Shown here one piece after another: positions 1,850 to 5,313 of a stretch of 5,313 nucleotides of DNA. Position numbers and translations under genes: made by a program. The notes beneath the pieces were generated by a model. That model made no database searches. It was not told where the DNA came from and saw nothing but the letters and a program-made list of their open reading frames with translations. The DNA comes from an uncultured beta proteobacterium. Lineage in GTDB: Bacteria; Pseudomonadota; Gammaproteobacteria; Burkholderiales; Rhodocyclaceae. Each line of letters begins with the position of its first letter. The stretch's first letter is position 1. Where the stretch lies: the NCBI GenBank assembly GCA_903910495.1, contig CAIVZW010000462.1, positions 1 through 5,313 of the forward strand, given 5' to 3'.

Positions 1850-2176
1850 AGAATTACGCCAATAATCCCGGTCTATCCCGGTCACAATCCCATTCCTAAT
1901 GCATTAACGGGATACCATAAATACAGCAATACCAAGCCTTGCAGCGTATGTATCCCGACAATCCCGACAATCCCGGCTAAAAATGCACAGTCAGGCTGGG
2001 TAGGCGTGGGTGCCATATTCTTTTGCGCGGCTGAAACTGTCAACTTGGTACAAACTATTCATGCCTTCGGCAAGAAAACGAAGGTAGTGCTTAACAAAGT
2101 TGACGGGTCCTTCCTGAGCTTCTTACAGGCGGGTCCATTCGAGCGCATGAATGCGCTAGGGTGCGAATTAAAATAA
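1844..2176 (+). CDS. Unrecognised protein with Ile-Pro repeats, 110 aa
   Basis: I do not recognise a family. The frame is open from about 1775, but ATG 1844 is the first ATG beyond the upstream stop at 1813-1815; only a weak GAAG (1831-1834) precedes it. Residues 2 to about 45 are rich in Ile, Pro, Asn and Thr and contain PIIPVYPGHNPIPN and the tandem PTIPTIPA. The C-terminal part after a Lys-Asn-Ala turn (about residues 50-110) looks like a folded alpha/beta unit: WVGVGAIFFCAAETVNLVQTIH, then KTKVVLNKVDGSFLSFL and FERMNALGCELK. Small phage proteins with such valine- or isoleucine-proline tandem units occur near replication or early genes, from general knowledge. The N-terminal part may therefore be coding DNA that doubles as a repeat array. 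It ends 28 bases before the terminase start. That the frame is translated at all is moderately certain. Confidence 0.5.
   Translation: MHRITPIIPVYPGHNPIPNALTGYHKYSNTKPCSVCIPTIPTIPAKNAQSGWVGVGAIFFCAAETVNLVQTIHAFGKKTKVVLNKVDGSFLSFLQAGPFERMNALGCELK
1866..1975. repeat. Iteron-like TCCCG repeat cluster
   Basis: TCCCG occurs at 1866, 1876, 1953, 1962 and 1971, with TCCC again at 1889 and the reverse complement at 1908-1912. The last three are exact tandem 9-base units (ATCCCGACA twice, then ATCCCGGCT). They lie inside the 110-residue reading frame, where each 9-base unit encodes Ile-Pro-Thr or Ile-Pro-Ala. Regular spacing resembles initiator-binding iterons, but the coding explanation alone would also give it. 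Confidence 0.5.
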
Positions 2177-2191
2177 ACGATTGACATTGAC

Positions 2192-2197
2192 AAGGAG
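2192..2197 (+). promoter_or_regulatory. Strong Shine-Dalgarno AAGGAG of the terminase gene
   Basis: It is placed seven bases before ATG 2205 and fixes that start over the in-frame TTG at 2181. Confidence 0.75.
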
Positions 2198-2204
2198 CCA
2201 AGTC

Positions 2205-2807
2205 ATGGCGGAACTTATCAGACAAGCCGAGCTTGCACGTCGAATTGGAGTAAGCCGCGCAGCCGTTTCCGCTGCAGCCAAGGCGGGCAGAATTACCCCA
2301 GTCTCCGATGGGCTGTTTGACTCTGCAATAGCTATTTCAGAATGGCGCGACAACACTCGACAGAATTCGGAAAAAACACCCGGTGATCGTGTTGCGACCA
2401 GGGCACCTGGCGGTCAGCCAAAATATGCCAGCTCGAGGGCTCGCAAGGAATTGGCGCTTGCACAAATGGCGGAACTGCGTCTTGCTCAGAAGAGTGGCGA
2501 TTTGTTTCCGCTTGATGATGTCGAAACAACCCTTCTCTTCTTTGGCGGCGAGATGCGCGCCGCAATGGAGAACTTCCCAGATCGGGTAACTCCACTGATT
2601 TCGACTCTCTCATCGCCTGAAGAAATGTACGAAATCCTTAAGGATGAGTGCCGCAACGTGCTGCTGGAAATCGGCCAAGCAGCCGAAAGGAAACTAGATG
2701 CTCTGAAAAGAGGCGATCATTCCGGATCCGGCAGCGAAGCAATTCGAACAAGGCCTGTTCGCTTCACCAGAAAAGTCGGCCAAGGTGAAACTCAAACCGG
2801 TGCGTAA
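2205..2807 (+). CDS. Phage terminase small subunit, Nu1-like, 200 aa
   Basis: The small terminase subunit recognises the packaging site on phage DNA and recruits the large ATPase/nuclease subunit. Residues 7-30 (QAELARRIGVSRAAVSAAAK and on to GRI) form a clear helix-turn-helix: Ala-Glu-Leu-Ala in the first helix, Gly-Val-Ser at the turn, and Ala-Ala-Val-Ser in the recognition helix. A linker rich in Thr, Gly and Pro follows. A long helical part from about residue 75 (SSRARKELALAQMAELRLAQ, KSGDLFPLDDVETTLLFFGG, EMRAAMENFPDRV) has the charged E-x-A-x-x-A-E-L-R-L-A-x-x-G-x-L pattern typical of Nu1-type small subunits. The last 25 residues are basic and Ser/Arg-rich. Length is normal for the family. 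No large subunit follows, so packaging cannot be complete here. The gene itself shows no damage, and reuse as a DNA-binding protein is possible. Confidence 0.82.
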   Translation: MAELIRQAELARRIGVSRAAVSAAAKAGRITPVSDGLFDSAIAISEWRDNTRQNSEKTPGDRVATRAPGGQPKYASSRARKELALAQMAELRLAQKSGDLFPLDDVETTLLFFGGEMRAAMENFPDRVTPLISTLSSPEEMYEILKDECRNVLLEIGQAAERKLDALKRGDHSGSGSEAIRTRPVRFTRKVGQGETQTGA

Positions 2808-2814
2808 TTTCTAA

Positions 2815-2835
2815 AGCGGGTATCAGAGCGGGTAT
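2815..2835. repeat. Tandem AGCGGGTAT pair
   Basis: The 9-base word AGCGGGTAT occurs at 2815-2823 and 2827-2835, a period of 12 bases, eight bases after the terminase stop. The second unit runs into the dyad at 2832-2847. The function is unknown; a protein-binding or attachment-related site is one possibility. Confidence 0.4.
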
Positions 2836-2847
2836 TTACATAAATAC
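2832..2847. terminator. 16-bp dyad GTATTTA-CA-TAAATAC followed by a T run; weak terminator or operator
   Basis: Two perfect 7-base arms flank CA, and AATTTTTTC follows at about 2849-2857. The position just behind the terminase gene suits transcription termination. However, the stem has a single G-C pair and would be weak. The same layout as the dyad at 1834-1849 argues for a protein-binding site instead. Confidence 0.3.
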
Positions 2848-3084
2848 AATTTTTTCTTCAAACAGACAAACCAATAAACGGCAAGCCTTTGAAAGCGTGT
2901 TCTTCCTGTTCAACGTCTAAGTCGATGAACAGCAAATTGGACGATACGGTGCCGCATTGAGGCTATGAGCGCAGTCCCCTCCACAAAAAACCACGTAATT
3001 GCCGGTCGAGCGAGCATATTGTTGGCGTCATGCAAATCGTGACCGACCTTGCTGCGTCAAATTGCAGTTCCGATAAACCTCAAA

Positions 3085-3174
3085 ATTATGGAAACTCTTC
3101 AGCGACATCGACTACCCGTAAAGCCATGTGCACCAAGGATTTACGAGGGTTATCGACTCATAAGTTTCCATAAT
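3085..3174. repeat. Long imperfect inverted repeat, recombinase-site-like
   Basis: ATTATGGAAACT at 3085-3096 is perfectly inverted as AGTTTCCATAAT at 3163-3174. A second, nearly concentric pair, CGTAAA at 3117-3122 and TTTACG at 3140-3145, lies inside, and GTGCAC sits at the centre (3128-3133). The 90-base element could extrude as a cruciform with unpaired internal bulges. This architecture resembles folded tyrosine-recombinase substrates such as integron attC sites or the ends of recombinase-carrying elements. The canonical integron core GTTRRRY/RYYYAAC was not matched at the ends, so an attC call is not made. No recombinase gene lies in the window. Confidence 0.55.
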
Positions 3175-3179
3175 CTAAG

Positions 3180-3192
3180 ACTTTGCATAATC
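3180..3192. repeat. Direct repeat of the inverted-repeat end motif
   Basis: ACTTTGCATAATC at 3180-3192 matches AGTTTCCATAATC at 3163-3175 in 11 of 13 bases, with an offset of 17 bases. Two direct copies plus one inverted copy of one motif suggest an array of binding sites for a single protein. Confidence 0.45.
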
Positions 3193-3451
3193 GGCCTTTA
3201 CCGACGTTCAGGGGCTTGGCTGTCTAGGTCCGTAATGACCGCCCACCAGCCGGTTATGGGTAAACCACGTTGAACGGCGGCTTCTAATCGAGGACTCGCG
3301 TGGACCATGCCTGATTGCTGTAAGGATAGAAGGTGTCAACTTGGATTCTTGCTATGGATTACTCATGCAATAGCGGGTACGGCGTGGCCATTCCAAGAAT
3401 ATAGATGGCGACCTCTGTAGTGCTAATGACCACTTAAGTTGTCGCTTGCCC

Positions 3452-3481
3452 TTGCGGGCAGGTATCGACAACGCTGATAAT
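3452..3481 (+). promoter_or_regulatory. Possible sigma-70 promoter of the accessory operon
   Basis: TTGCGG at 3452-3457 and GATAAT at 3476-3481 are 18 bases apart. The -10 box matches five of six consensus bases, but the -35 box matches only the TTG. Transcription would begin near 3488, leaving a leader of about 90 bases before the TTG start at 3582. An alternative -10, TATAGA at 3400-3405, has no good -35. Confidence 0.25.
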
Positions 3482-3572
3482 GATTGCTGTAGGGCGATCG
3501 CGAACCTCGTCAAGGCCTATAACAACGACCAGAAGAAGGCACGCGCATTGCCCATTCATTTCGCGTTCTTCT

Positions 3573-3584
3573 GGGGAAGCATTG
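3573..3584 (+). promoter_or_regulatory. Ribosome-binding site GGGGA with TTG start
   Basis: GGGGA at 3573-3577 lies four bases from TTG 3582. The longer in-frame extension up to 3480 encodes Arg/Ser/Thr-rich low-quality sequence with no family resemblance. The TTG directly precedes the conserved part LPDLDVVTGYLPPGIH. Confidence 0.5.
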
Positions 3585-4142
3585 AGCACACTGCCAGACC
3601 TCGACGTGGTTACCGGATATCTTCCGCCCGGCATTCACTACGCAACGCAGGACGTTTTCGCGCAGGCCTTCGGCGGATACTGCGAGGCGACGCCATTCAA
3701 CTTTGAGCGTCTTTCGCATCGCCGAAAGCTCTACTCCGGCTATGCACGACTCGTCGAGATGCTCGAAAATACAGGCCTGACCGCACGACAGTGGGTCGGC
3801 GGCAGTTTCGTGACAAACAAGGCAGTGCCGAGCGACGTTGATGTGGTGAACTTCTGCGACGTCCAGCGCTACGAATCACTCTCATCTGAAGCAAGAAAGC
3901 TTCTCGATCCATTCTTCCAAGGGAAAAAGACGGCACAAGTCTGTTATTGTGACTCTTATTTCGCTCCAACGGCCCAACTGGATCATCCGAATCGCGTGGA
4001 TTTTGACGTCATTGCGGCGTACTGGCATACGACTTTTGGGCACGACCGCGCTGGACGCGCGAAAGGAATCGTCGCGCCCATGGTCGACGCGGAGAAAGCA
4101 CTGAAAATACTCACGGAGCACATCGATGCAGCCGTTAGCTGA
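3582..4142 (+). CDS. DUF6932-type nucleotidyltransferase-like protein, 186 aa
   Basis: The order of motifs matches what I know of DUF6932. An N-terminal GYLPPGIHYAT (residues 12-22) is followed by a helical part with RRKLYSGYARLVEMLE (47-62). Then comes the nucleotidyltransferase signature GGSFVTNKAVPSDVDVV (73-89), with Gly74-Ser75, Lys80 and the acidic pair Asp85 and Asp87. RVDFDVIAAYW (138-148) may provide the third acidic strand (Asp140 or Asp142). The family end FGHDRAGRAKGIV spans 152-164. Proteins with this Gly-Ser/Asp-x-Asp core transfer nucleotides to small molecules, RNA or protein, and some are antitoxins or toxins, such as MNT and AbiEii. The substrate here is unknown. The catalytic residues appear present, so it is probably active. 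The gene overlaps the next by 17 bases, indicating one operon and a likely partner. The TTG start makes low expression likely. An inactive relative of a nucleotidyltransferase is an alternative. Confidence 0.82.
   Translation: MSTLPDLDVVTGYLPPGIHYATQDVFAQAFGGYCEATPFNFERLSHRRKLYSGYARLVEMLENTGLTARQWVGGSFVTNKAVPSDVDVVNFCDVQRYESLSSEARKLLDPFFQGKKTAQVCYCDSYFAPTAQLDHPNRVDFDVIAAYWHTTFGHDRAGRAKGIVAPMVDAEKALKILTEHIDAAVS
4115..4128 (+). promoter_or_regulatory. Shine-Dalgarno GGAG of the overlapping partner gene
   Basis: GGAG at 4115-4118 lies seven bases before ATG 4126, inside the end of the upstream gene. It supports this start and coupled translation of the two genes. Confidence 0.6.
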
Positions 4143-5115
4143 ACTGCGATCATGGAAAGAGGAGGTCAGCCCCGATCTGGCAGAAAGCCGCGTCAAATGG
4201 CTCCGCCAGCAGATACTTGCCGCCGATAACGCCATCGAAGCTCAGCAAAGGATCATCGCTGTCGACGGCCCTCTCCTTGCATATGCCCTCTCCATAGACA
4301 GTCTCCGCGCTTCGCAGCGTGATCTCGAAAACGAACTCGCGGAAGTGATGCAGCAGCGCGAATTCGAAGTCGTGAACTTCGCATTGGGGGGACGGCGGTA
4401 CGACCAGCACCGAGCTGGTGCAGCAGCGTTGGCTGAGGTTCTGGCCAACATGCAGCACTTGTACGAGCGAGTCGCTCAGGCAATTTCTACCGCGAAGATC
4501 ACAAAGAAAATTCAGGAGAACGTTCTAGCTAACGCCCAACTCGAGGTTGCCGGCTTTTTCTCCTCTTCGTTCGGTATTCGGTTCGCAACGCGCACGAACG
4601 TGCAGATAACCGGCGATAGTCTCGCCGATTCGGCACTTGACGCAACGTTCGATCTCATTAATGCGCAAAACCCCGTGGATCAAGCAGCTCGACTCGGGAC
4701 GCGAGTTCTCTCCCGTTACCGTAGCTTGGTAAAGACGCTAGTCCAGGCGCAAGCCGAGCCGAAGGCGCAGTGGACAACGCCGACCGGGGATGAACGCGAG
4801 TGGAATTGCTCGTTCGACGACCTAACAGTCCTTTACAACCGACTTTCCAGTATAGAGATCCGCAAACCCCGAACGGTGACTTCTGTCGGTTTTCTTTCCG
4901 GCGCTAACTTGAGGCGACACCGTTTCGAGCTTCAGAGCGACCTGGGAAACATCACAGGGACTGCCTCGGCAGATTTGAAGGATAAGATCACCCAAAATTT
5001 CGGGACCGTTTGCCAAGTCACCTATGTGGAAACTTCGTTTATGGATGAGACCACTGAGCAGGAAAAATTCAATAGAACGCTCATTAACGTCGAGCCACTA
5101 AAACCGCTGAGATAA
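4126..5115 (+). CDS. Uncharacterised partner protein of the nucleotidyltransferase, 329 aa
   Basis: No named family is assigned. Residues 18-78 are long, charged helices, probably coiled coil (SRVKWLRQQILAADNAIEAQ and SLRASQRDLENELAEVMQQ). A compact part follows: a strand FEVVNFALGG, a helix LAEVLANMQHLYERVAQAIS (101-120), and the motif FFSSSFGIRF (143-152). This pattern recalls, from memory, a group of unstudied bacterial proteins with a hydrophobic helix containing a conserved Gln and a later F-x-G/S-S-F-G strand. Helices around 165-208 come next. Residues 250-325 (VGFLSGANLRRHRFELQSD, then NITGTASADLKDKI and VCQVTYVE) look like a small beta-barrel of the kind that binds nucleic acid or protein. 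There is no signal peptide or membrane span, so the protein is cytoplasmic. The 17-base overlap with the nucleotidyltransferase and matching codon use suggest they act together. It could be the effector, the target or the neutralising partner. Confidence 0.85.
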   Translation: MQPLAELRSWKEEVSPDLAESRVKWLRQQILAADNAIEAQQRIIAVDGPLLAYALSIDSLRASQRDLENELAEVMQQREFEVVNFALGGRRYDQHRAGAAALAEVLANMQHLYERVAQAISTAKITKKIQENVLANAQLEVAGFFSSSFGIRFATRTNVQITGDSLADSALDATFDLINAQNPVDQAARLGTRVLSRYRSLVKTLVQAQAEPKAQWTTPTGDEREWNCSFDDLTVLYNRLSSIEIRKPRTVTSVGFLSGANLRRHRFELQSDLGNITGTASADLKDKITQNFGTVCQVTYVETSFMDETTEQEKFNRTLINVEPLKPLR

Positions 5116-5138
5116 GATGGTTGCAATAAGTGACCAAA

Positions 5139-5313
5139 ATGGTTAATAATCTAGATCCGAGGAGGCTCGTCAGTGGCGAATACCGCCTCACAAAATCCGG
5201 TGGTCGGGCTCGCGTTAGAAACGGACCAATTTACGACCTGAGCATCGTCAAGCAGCTAGTACAGCAATTCGGATTGCATGTTGTTATCAACGCAACAAAC
5301 GCTATGGCGACAA
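5139..5313 (+). CDS. N-terminus of a third operon gene, possibly an MqsR-type toxin (partial)
   Basis: From ATG 5139 the frame stays open to the window edge (58 codons). No strong ribosome-binding site precedes it; GTG 5130 is an in-frame alternative. The first 30 residues are basic (DPRRLVSGEYRLTKSGGRARV). They are followed by IYDLSIVKQLVQQFGLHVVI and NATNAMAT. The Y-x-L-x-x-V-K-x-L-V block, followed by a short strand and T/N-A repeats, recalls the start of MqsR-family toxins, which are mRNA-cleaving RelE-like ribonucleases that act in the cytoplasm with an antitoxin. The N-terminal extension is longer than usual for MqsR, and the catalytic part lies beyond the window, so the assignment is tentative. 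The gap of 23 bases after the partner gene's stop suggests the same transcript. Confidence 0.5.
   Translation, partial: MVNNLDPRRLVSGEYRLTKSGGRARVRNGPIYDLSIVKQLVQQFGLHVVINATNAMAT
5159..5241 (+). other. Strong Shine-Dalgarno with a 22-codon micro-frame overlapping the third gene
   Basis: GAGGAGG at 5159-5165 is the best ribosome-binding site in the right part of the window and lies seven bases before GTG 5173. That start gives only MANTASQNPVV and 11 more residues before TGA at 5239-5241, in a different phase from the longer frame starting at 5139. It may be a leader peptide, a frameshift trace, or chance sequence in the Arg-Arg codons. Confidence 0.3.

Follow-up and report, generated by a model that had tools for sequence, protein, structure and literature searches.

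A DUF6932 nucleotidyltransferase and its M63B partner as a conserved, phage-associated gene pair of the candidate defence family PDC-M63 in a Rhodocyclaceae contig

The 5,313-nucleotide contig CAIVZW010000462.1 of an uncultured beta proteobacterium (Rhodocyclaceae, assembly GCA_903910495.1), the whole of which is hereafter called the window, raises the question of whether a nucleotidyltransferase gene, M63A, and the gene that follows it, M63B, belong together, and whether with the start of a third gene they constitute a toxin-antitoxin or phage-defence unit, as a preliminary description made from the sequence had proposed. The coordinates and lengths of the two genes were given correctly there, as was their overlap: M63A lies directly upstream of M63B on the same strand, and the reading frames share 17 bases (4126-4142). 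The protein encoded by M63A belongs to the Pfam family DUF6932 (PF22014, E 8.4e-27) and matches the PADLOC model PDC-M63A (PDLC04744, E 2.8e-21, residues 40-165 on positions 29-146 of the 152 in the profile), and M63B matches PDC-M63B (PDLC04747, E 2.4e-25, residues 24-322 on positions 5-308 of 309). DUF6932 and M63B form a conserved two-gene pair of a known candidate family that is carried by phages, and the window represents a divergent clade of it. Judged from these profile matches the pair is not new, being already named as the candidate PDC-M63, whose anti-phage activity is putative; the earlier view of an undescribed set thus has to be given up.

A search for PDC-M63A across 398 genomes from the phylum found DUF6932/PDC-M63A at 19 places in 18 of them. 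An M63B-type gene lies directly downstream at 13 of the 19 places, and at four (L018, L019, L025 and L027; L and G numbers denote loci and genomes) the neighbour is an XRE-ImmA/IrrE protein; two such partners were scanned with PADLOC and the others were read by eye. At one place, L022 (larger flank L040), neither partner type is present, and the place in L028 (E 7.4e-4), located among glycosyltransferase-like genes, was judged spurious. The four M63A-type proteins with an XRE-ImmA/IrrE partner form one clade (support 100/99), at which the tree program warns of long branches meeting. Searches from the M63B side with the close family of the window gave matches in nine different genomes, six of which have a full M63B, with M63A adjoining in five (G001, G658, G1094, G1311 and G1562); the other matches were DUF6575-type proteins in G359 and G1298 and a match to the N-terminal hairpin only in G470. 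The latter is a 204-residue protein (L010, 4808-5422, minus strand) which resembles M63B only in its N-terminal part, over the hairpin (profile positions 31-74, E 9.7e-8). The distances among M63A proteins and among their M63B partners are correlated (r 0.932 over 17 pairs, host kinship uncorrected), a value reached in none of 10,000 permutations. The phage terminase gene upstream and a possible repressor remnant before M63A might suggest that the two genes are chance neighbours in a decayed phage remnant, with no functional pairing; against this stand their co-occurrence, their overlap and their correlated divergence, and because of this pairing we consider the idea refuted and extremely improbable.

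M63A has no domain beyond the DUF6932 minimal nucleotidyltransferase. Its TTG start and N-terminus are common to the window and L001, and an entry of the protein database (P0021) holds a 178-residue version, for which the start would be GTG 3606. An alignment of 65 proteins, made up of the one from the window, the one from L001 and 63 out of 119 newly listed ones, chosen from the best matches, shows no variation at residues G74, S75, D85, D87 and D124; in another set, of 17 proteins with greater diversity, the first four again do not vary and D124 is conserved at 90% or more. Because of this invariance the nucleotidyltransferase core is, by alignment, complete with D124 as the third carboxylate, which bears out the complete Gly-Ser and Asp-x-Asp core proposed earlier. 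The AlphaFold2 model of M63A has a predicted local distance difference test score (pLDDT) of 84.3, and its weak structural matches include MNT antitoxins; Foldseek against PDB gave no match at E 0.001 for M63A or M63B, and a search of solved structures by M63A sequence found none. A single-sequence search of the protein database returned only M63A itself and an alignment-based one 795 matches, no relative of M63A was found in viral contigs, and DUF6932 was not mentioned in the literature searched. Two related loci are of separate note: L049 has a full-length DUF6932 frame (10293-10838) in which Gly-Ser and Asp-x-Asp are both changed, beside a full-length M63B (read by eye), and in L023 a second, MNT-like minimal nucleotidyltransferase gene of 113 residues (2029-2370, minus strand, by eye) lies directly upstream of M63A.

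For M63B, 19 other relatives were found, one of them partial, and when 18 of the proteins were each compared with the profile of the others, all were recovered at E 1.6e-35 or better (in a database of one sequence). The AlphaFold2 model (mean pLDDT 86.9) places helices at residues 16-47 and 51-75 and successive strands at 249-324, and the C-terminal part aligns with OB folds; the predicted layout therefore begins with a helical hairpin, continues with a middle domain and ends in an OB-fold barrel, in agreement with the coiled-coil and beta-barrel protein anticipated in the preliminary description. No Pfam match to HEPN, AbiEi, AbiEii (scan at E 1) or DUF6575 was detected in M63B, 21 aligned M63B proteins contain no invariant histidine, and only weak matches to solved structures were obtained by sequence. 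No relative was found by tblastn in plasmids and in phages or by a search in viral contigs. A single-sequence search of genome contigs likewise gave none, and the M63B alignment then gave L001 and L002.

The genomic setting of the relatives points to phages, as had been expected for a conserved pair of this kind. In the phage collection six records hold the pair, and they represent three lambda-like phages, mEpX1 (three records), vB_EhrS_59 (two) and PhiR30_1; in all three records opened, one per phage, the pair comes directly after cI in the same orientation, and cro and cII are divergently oriented. We take this slot to be the position of rexAB, the phage-exclusion genes of phage lambda. The mEpX1-type pair was also identified in 18 of 5,426 E. 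coli genomes, with the same order behind cI in the one opened; a Klebsiella record has the gene order of the mEpX1-type locus, and the pair is disrupted in an Enterobacter record. Repressor-like genes precede M63A in other genomes as well: in G1090 a CI-like repressor (by eye) lies just before it, and in G658, the genome of L049, an XRE-type gene ends five bases before it. Positions 3469-3654 of the window are 75.5% identical to 1119-1302 of L001 over 188 bp, the start of M63A included, and we suspect that the 113 bases before M63A are the remnant of a repressor gene; the L049 repressor gave no tblastn match to window positions 2700-3620.

Restriction-modification genes also occur in some of these neighbourhoods. 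One neighbour was scanned with Pfam at each of six loci with the pair, and it proved to be a DNA methyltransferase or restriction-modification gene in three (L033, L034 and L060), a housekeeping-type gene in L038 and L041, and a gene without a Pfam match in L030. The whole order in L060 (1-3957) is an integrase-like gene (by eye), M63A, M63B and an MmeI-type restriction-modification gene. The enrichment near defence genes that the preliminary description proposed to examine was checked by comparing 102 open frames from the surroundings of 12 loci with 102 control frames from other parts of those genomes, leaving out the pair L075/L076, which supplied no frames, and frames below 110 or above 900 residues, and so the MmeI gene of L060. 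At E 1e-10, 72 PADLOC families were matched near the pair versus 29 in the controls, a count of families rather than genes that includes, by our own reading, housekeeping look-alikes (DndA, SspA and RtcR). Among the first 25 families, the neighbour list was led by mad2, type I, II and III methyltransferases and Cas1, and the control list by models of PD-T4-6, which are serine/threonine kinases (PMC9519451), together with MzaA, mad6, mad3, AriA and MkoA. The excess thus runs in the expected direction, and it is only indicative of defence genes around the pair. An accessory prophage function with no defence role, such as lysogeny maintenance or control of the host or the repressor operon, would suit the place behind cI, and in the one deletion test found, removal of PDC-M63AB from a prophage of E. 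coli NILS69 gave no evidence of defence against 10 phages (PMC12409345). The methyltransferase and restriction-modification neighbours at three of the six scanned loci, and the modules that the pair has in common with tested defence proteins, speak against such a function, which we regard as unlikely.

These shared modules come from two directions. The M63B core (profile positions 58-310) recurs in L006 (E 1.6e-39) and L057 (E 3.3e-30) behind a PD-T4-10B-type N-terminal domain, identified by Pfam as DUF6575 in L006, and the first genes of these loci match the antitoxin PD-T4-10_A (E 3.9e-5 and 1.1e-12, respectively). As two-gene loci, L006 (755-2340) and L057 (714-2244) form a bridge between two defence families. 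From the other direction, the two alternative DUF6932 partners that were scanned match PD-Lambda-2_B, strongly in L046 (E 1e-75) and weakly in L037 (E 2.2e-7). Loci with DUF6932 and an XRE-ImmA/IrrE gene were seen in L037 (4367-6291), L044 (130-2038), L046 (9894-11632) and L018, and this combination could represent a so far undescribed form of PD-lambda-2 with a nucleotidyltransferase. Both PD-T4-10B and PD-lambda-2B proved toxic on their own, with the upstream gene acting as neutraliser in each case; that PD-lambda-2B was the toxic one was unexpected (PMC9519451).

By analogy, this pattern, in which the first gene neutralises and the second acts, suggests that M63B is the effector. Because the M63B core occurs with a PD-T4-10B-type domain and the alternative partner matches PD-lambda-2B, both of which are proven toxins, we tentatively prefer the possibility that M63AB is a toxin-antitoxin-like module in which M63B is the effector and M63A its neutraliser. 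Such a two-gene module, carried by prophages and in some restriction-modification neighbourhoods, would probably serve abortive infection or superinfection exclusion. M63A, predicted to be catalytically competent, would keep M63B silent by nucleotidylating or binding it, with the N-terminal hairpin of M63B as a putative docking site for M63A; infection would upset this control, and the freed M63B might then act through its middle domain and OB fold on nucleic acid or the translation machinery. Several observations weigh against this proposal, in addition to the NILS69 deletion. In L049, M63A has lost its active site while M63B stays whole; G002 has a full M63B and no M63A detected in the available genome sequence; and the idea that the M63B core corresponds to the toxic C-terminal part of PD-T4-10B was dropped, as the pieces in L061 gave no match. 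The hairpin as an M63A-binding module shared by M63B and the XRE-ImmA/IrrE partner was likewise abandoned as anything but a structural idea (best E 0.39, -1.4 bits).

The same loci bear on the reverse assignment, in which M63A would be the toxin, modifying tRNA ends or proteins like MenT/AbiEii, and M63B would serve as antitoxin or sense phage, with its hairpin wrapped around M63A in the manner of type II antitoxins. The core that is complete in every M63A of the larger alignment would fit a toxin, its loss in L049 resembles the decay of toxins, and M63B without a detected partner in G002 would be expected of an antitoxin; moreover, the hairpin and OB fold of M63B seem suited to sensing, and the alternative partner carries a helix-turn-helix domain, as is usual for antitoxins. 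However, G1001 has an M63A with a core intact by eye and no detected M63B, so M63A alone appears to be tolerated there; DUF6932 is a minimal nucleotidyltransferase without an extra domain; and in experiments on the two related systems it was the second-gene protein that proved toxic (PMC9519451). We therefore consider M63A as the toxin to be somewhat unlikely, and retain M63B as the presumed effector.

What the gene behind the pair contributes can be judged from the relatives. The window frame that starts at 5139 is 39% identical to its counterpart in L001 and 50% to that in L002, and its fragment of 58 codons gave no Pfam match. In L001 the order is M63A, M63B, an MqsR-like gene (MqsR_toxin, PF15723, E 1.4e-4, 22.7 bits against a cut-off of 26.2), MqsA (PF15731, E 5.6e-14; 241 residues, about 110 of them beyond the matched domain) and a SecB-like gene (SecB, E 3.6e-4, below the cut-off), and in L002 it is M63B, an MqsR-like gene without a Pfam match, MqsA (E 1.4e-10) and the contig end. 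The MqsR-type start proposed at 5139 is plausible from its counterparts, which precede an MqsA gene. In L049, the M63A gene with the lost core and M63B are followed by HicA (E 4.6e-8), HicB (E 3.3e-16) and a third gene. Within the close clade of the window, the operon behind the pair is therefore MqsR-MqsA-SecB-like in Zoogloea and HicA-HicB elsewhere, with a toxin-type gene of one of these two kinds 23 to 57 bases behind M63B at all four loci, the window included. The third gene of L049, first read by eye as SecB-like, was unconfirmed: it had no PF02556 match at E 10 and none to Pfam in its longer frame, hhalign gave a probability of 5% or less, and BLASTP and solved structures yielded nothing. 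A SecB profile built from three housekeeping SecB proteins and the L001 gene, thin enough to miss divergent members, recovered over 25 loci only the L001 gene at E 1 or better, with nothing in the other 24, among them L049 and the more distant M63AB loci.

At more distant M63AB loci, no toxin operon was noticed when the neighbours were read by eye, no dedicated toxin search having been made. Because the third gene in L001 and L049 heads a toxin-antitoxin operon of its own and no such operon was noticed in the distant loci, we regard M63AB and the toxin operon as distinct modules that adjoin each other, the gene at 5139 apparently starting a separate one; the three-gene unit proposed earlier is retained insofar as a toxin-antitoxin operon adjoins the pair in relatives, and replaced by a two-gene module plus a separate operon. 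It is doubtful, and quite improbable in our estimate, that the close-clade M63AB and the toxin-antitoxin(-chaperone) operon make up one layered defence unit, in which a swappable MqsRA or HicBA would be a second arm, set off by M63AB itself or by the disabling of the first arm, while M63AB fills the prophage exclusion slot with its nucleotidyltransferase restraining an OB-fold effector or sensor. The MqsRAC system of E. coli C496_10 confers protection against T2 (PMC9519451).

The features of the window are collected in the table below. Two further frames, 1171-1812 and 285-932, lack a Pfam match, the former having a weak phrog_13702 match only (E 0.0028, terminase large subunit). A promoter and terminator scan of the window gave nothing above shuffles, and a tRNA scan found none.

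Features of the window with their positions, strand and basis of assignment
Feature	Position	Strand	Basis
Phage terminase small subunit	2205..2807	+	phrog_57 E 2.3e-32
Conserved stretch just 5' of M63A, possible 3' remnant of an XRE/CI-type repressor gene	3469..3581	+	
M63A, DUF6932 minimal nucleotidyltransferase	3582..4142	+	186 residues from TTG 3582; PF22014 and PDC-M63A matches
M63A predicted catalytic motif G74-S75 ... D85-x-D87	3801..3842	+	alignments
M63A D124, predicted third catalytic carboxylate	3951..3953	+	alignments
M63B partner protein, 329 residues (predicted N-terminal helical hairpin, middle domain, C-terminal OB fold)	4126..5115	+	PDC-M63B match, AlphaFold2 model
M63B predicted N-terminal helical hairpin, residues 16-75	4171..4350	+	AlphaFold2 secondary structure
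M63B predicted C-terminal OB-fold barrel, residues ~247-326	4864..5103	+	alignment with OB folds
Putative MqsR-like toxin gene start, cut by window end	5139..5313	+	identity to L001 and L002 counterparts

No mechanism for PDC-M63 was found in the literature searched, and the anatomy described here provides a testable one. The relatives outline a network of exchange: a single nucleotidyltransferase family is combined with two kinds of second gene, and a single second-gene core stands behind two N-terminal domains, with ties to proteins of demonstrated toxicity. Cultured coliphages such as mEpX1 carry the pair behind cI and so provide a lysogen ready for laboratory tests. Whether prophages stack exclusion modules is a question raised by the toxin operon that adjoins the pair in the clade of the window. 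What the present work adds is the modular connection to tested toxins, the exclusion slot and the adjoining operon; these were not found in the parts of the literature searched, which is no proof of their absence from print.

Among known systems, PDC-M63 is the closest, as both window genes match it in the order seen in relatives. From its lambdoid type the window differs in sequence, its M63A being 27.9% identical to that of mEpX1 and its M63B not being found in phages by tblastn, and in the toxin gene that follows the pair. HEPN-MNT systems likewise place a minimal nucleotidyltransferase with a GS...DxD core beside a partner gene. The conserved motif of HEPN proteins is RX4-6H; M63B shows no sign of HEPN, and its model contains a beta barrel. 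As for AbiE and MenAT, the window M63A is a DUF6932 protein, and neither gene has an AbiEi or AbiEii match (Pfam, E 1). The operon behind M63AB in L001 resembles the toxin-antitoxin-chaperone system MqsRAC in its MqsR-like gene, MqsA with a long C-terminal extension and SecB-like gene, although two of the three are below Pfam cut-offs and the window shows the first 58 codons only. The likeness to rexAB of lambda is one of position alone, the place behind cI in lambda-like relatives, with no rex family among the Pfam matches. PD-T4-10 shares the M63B core, which in L006 and L057 is fused behind a PD-T4-10B-type domain beside PD-T4-10_A-like genes, whereas the window M63B matches only M63B in PADLOC and lacks DUF6575, and its partner is a nucleotidyltransferase that matches M63A and not PD-T4-10A. 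Finally, PD-lambda-2 consists of a HigB-like gene, an XRE-ImmA/IrrE gene and a third gene; its second gene matches the alternative DUF6932 partner in L046. The window has M63B in the second place, and loci of the L046 type have DUF6932 in place of the HigB-like gene.
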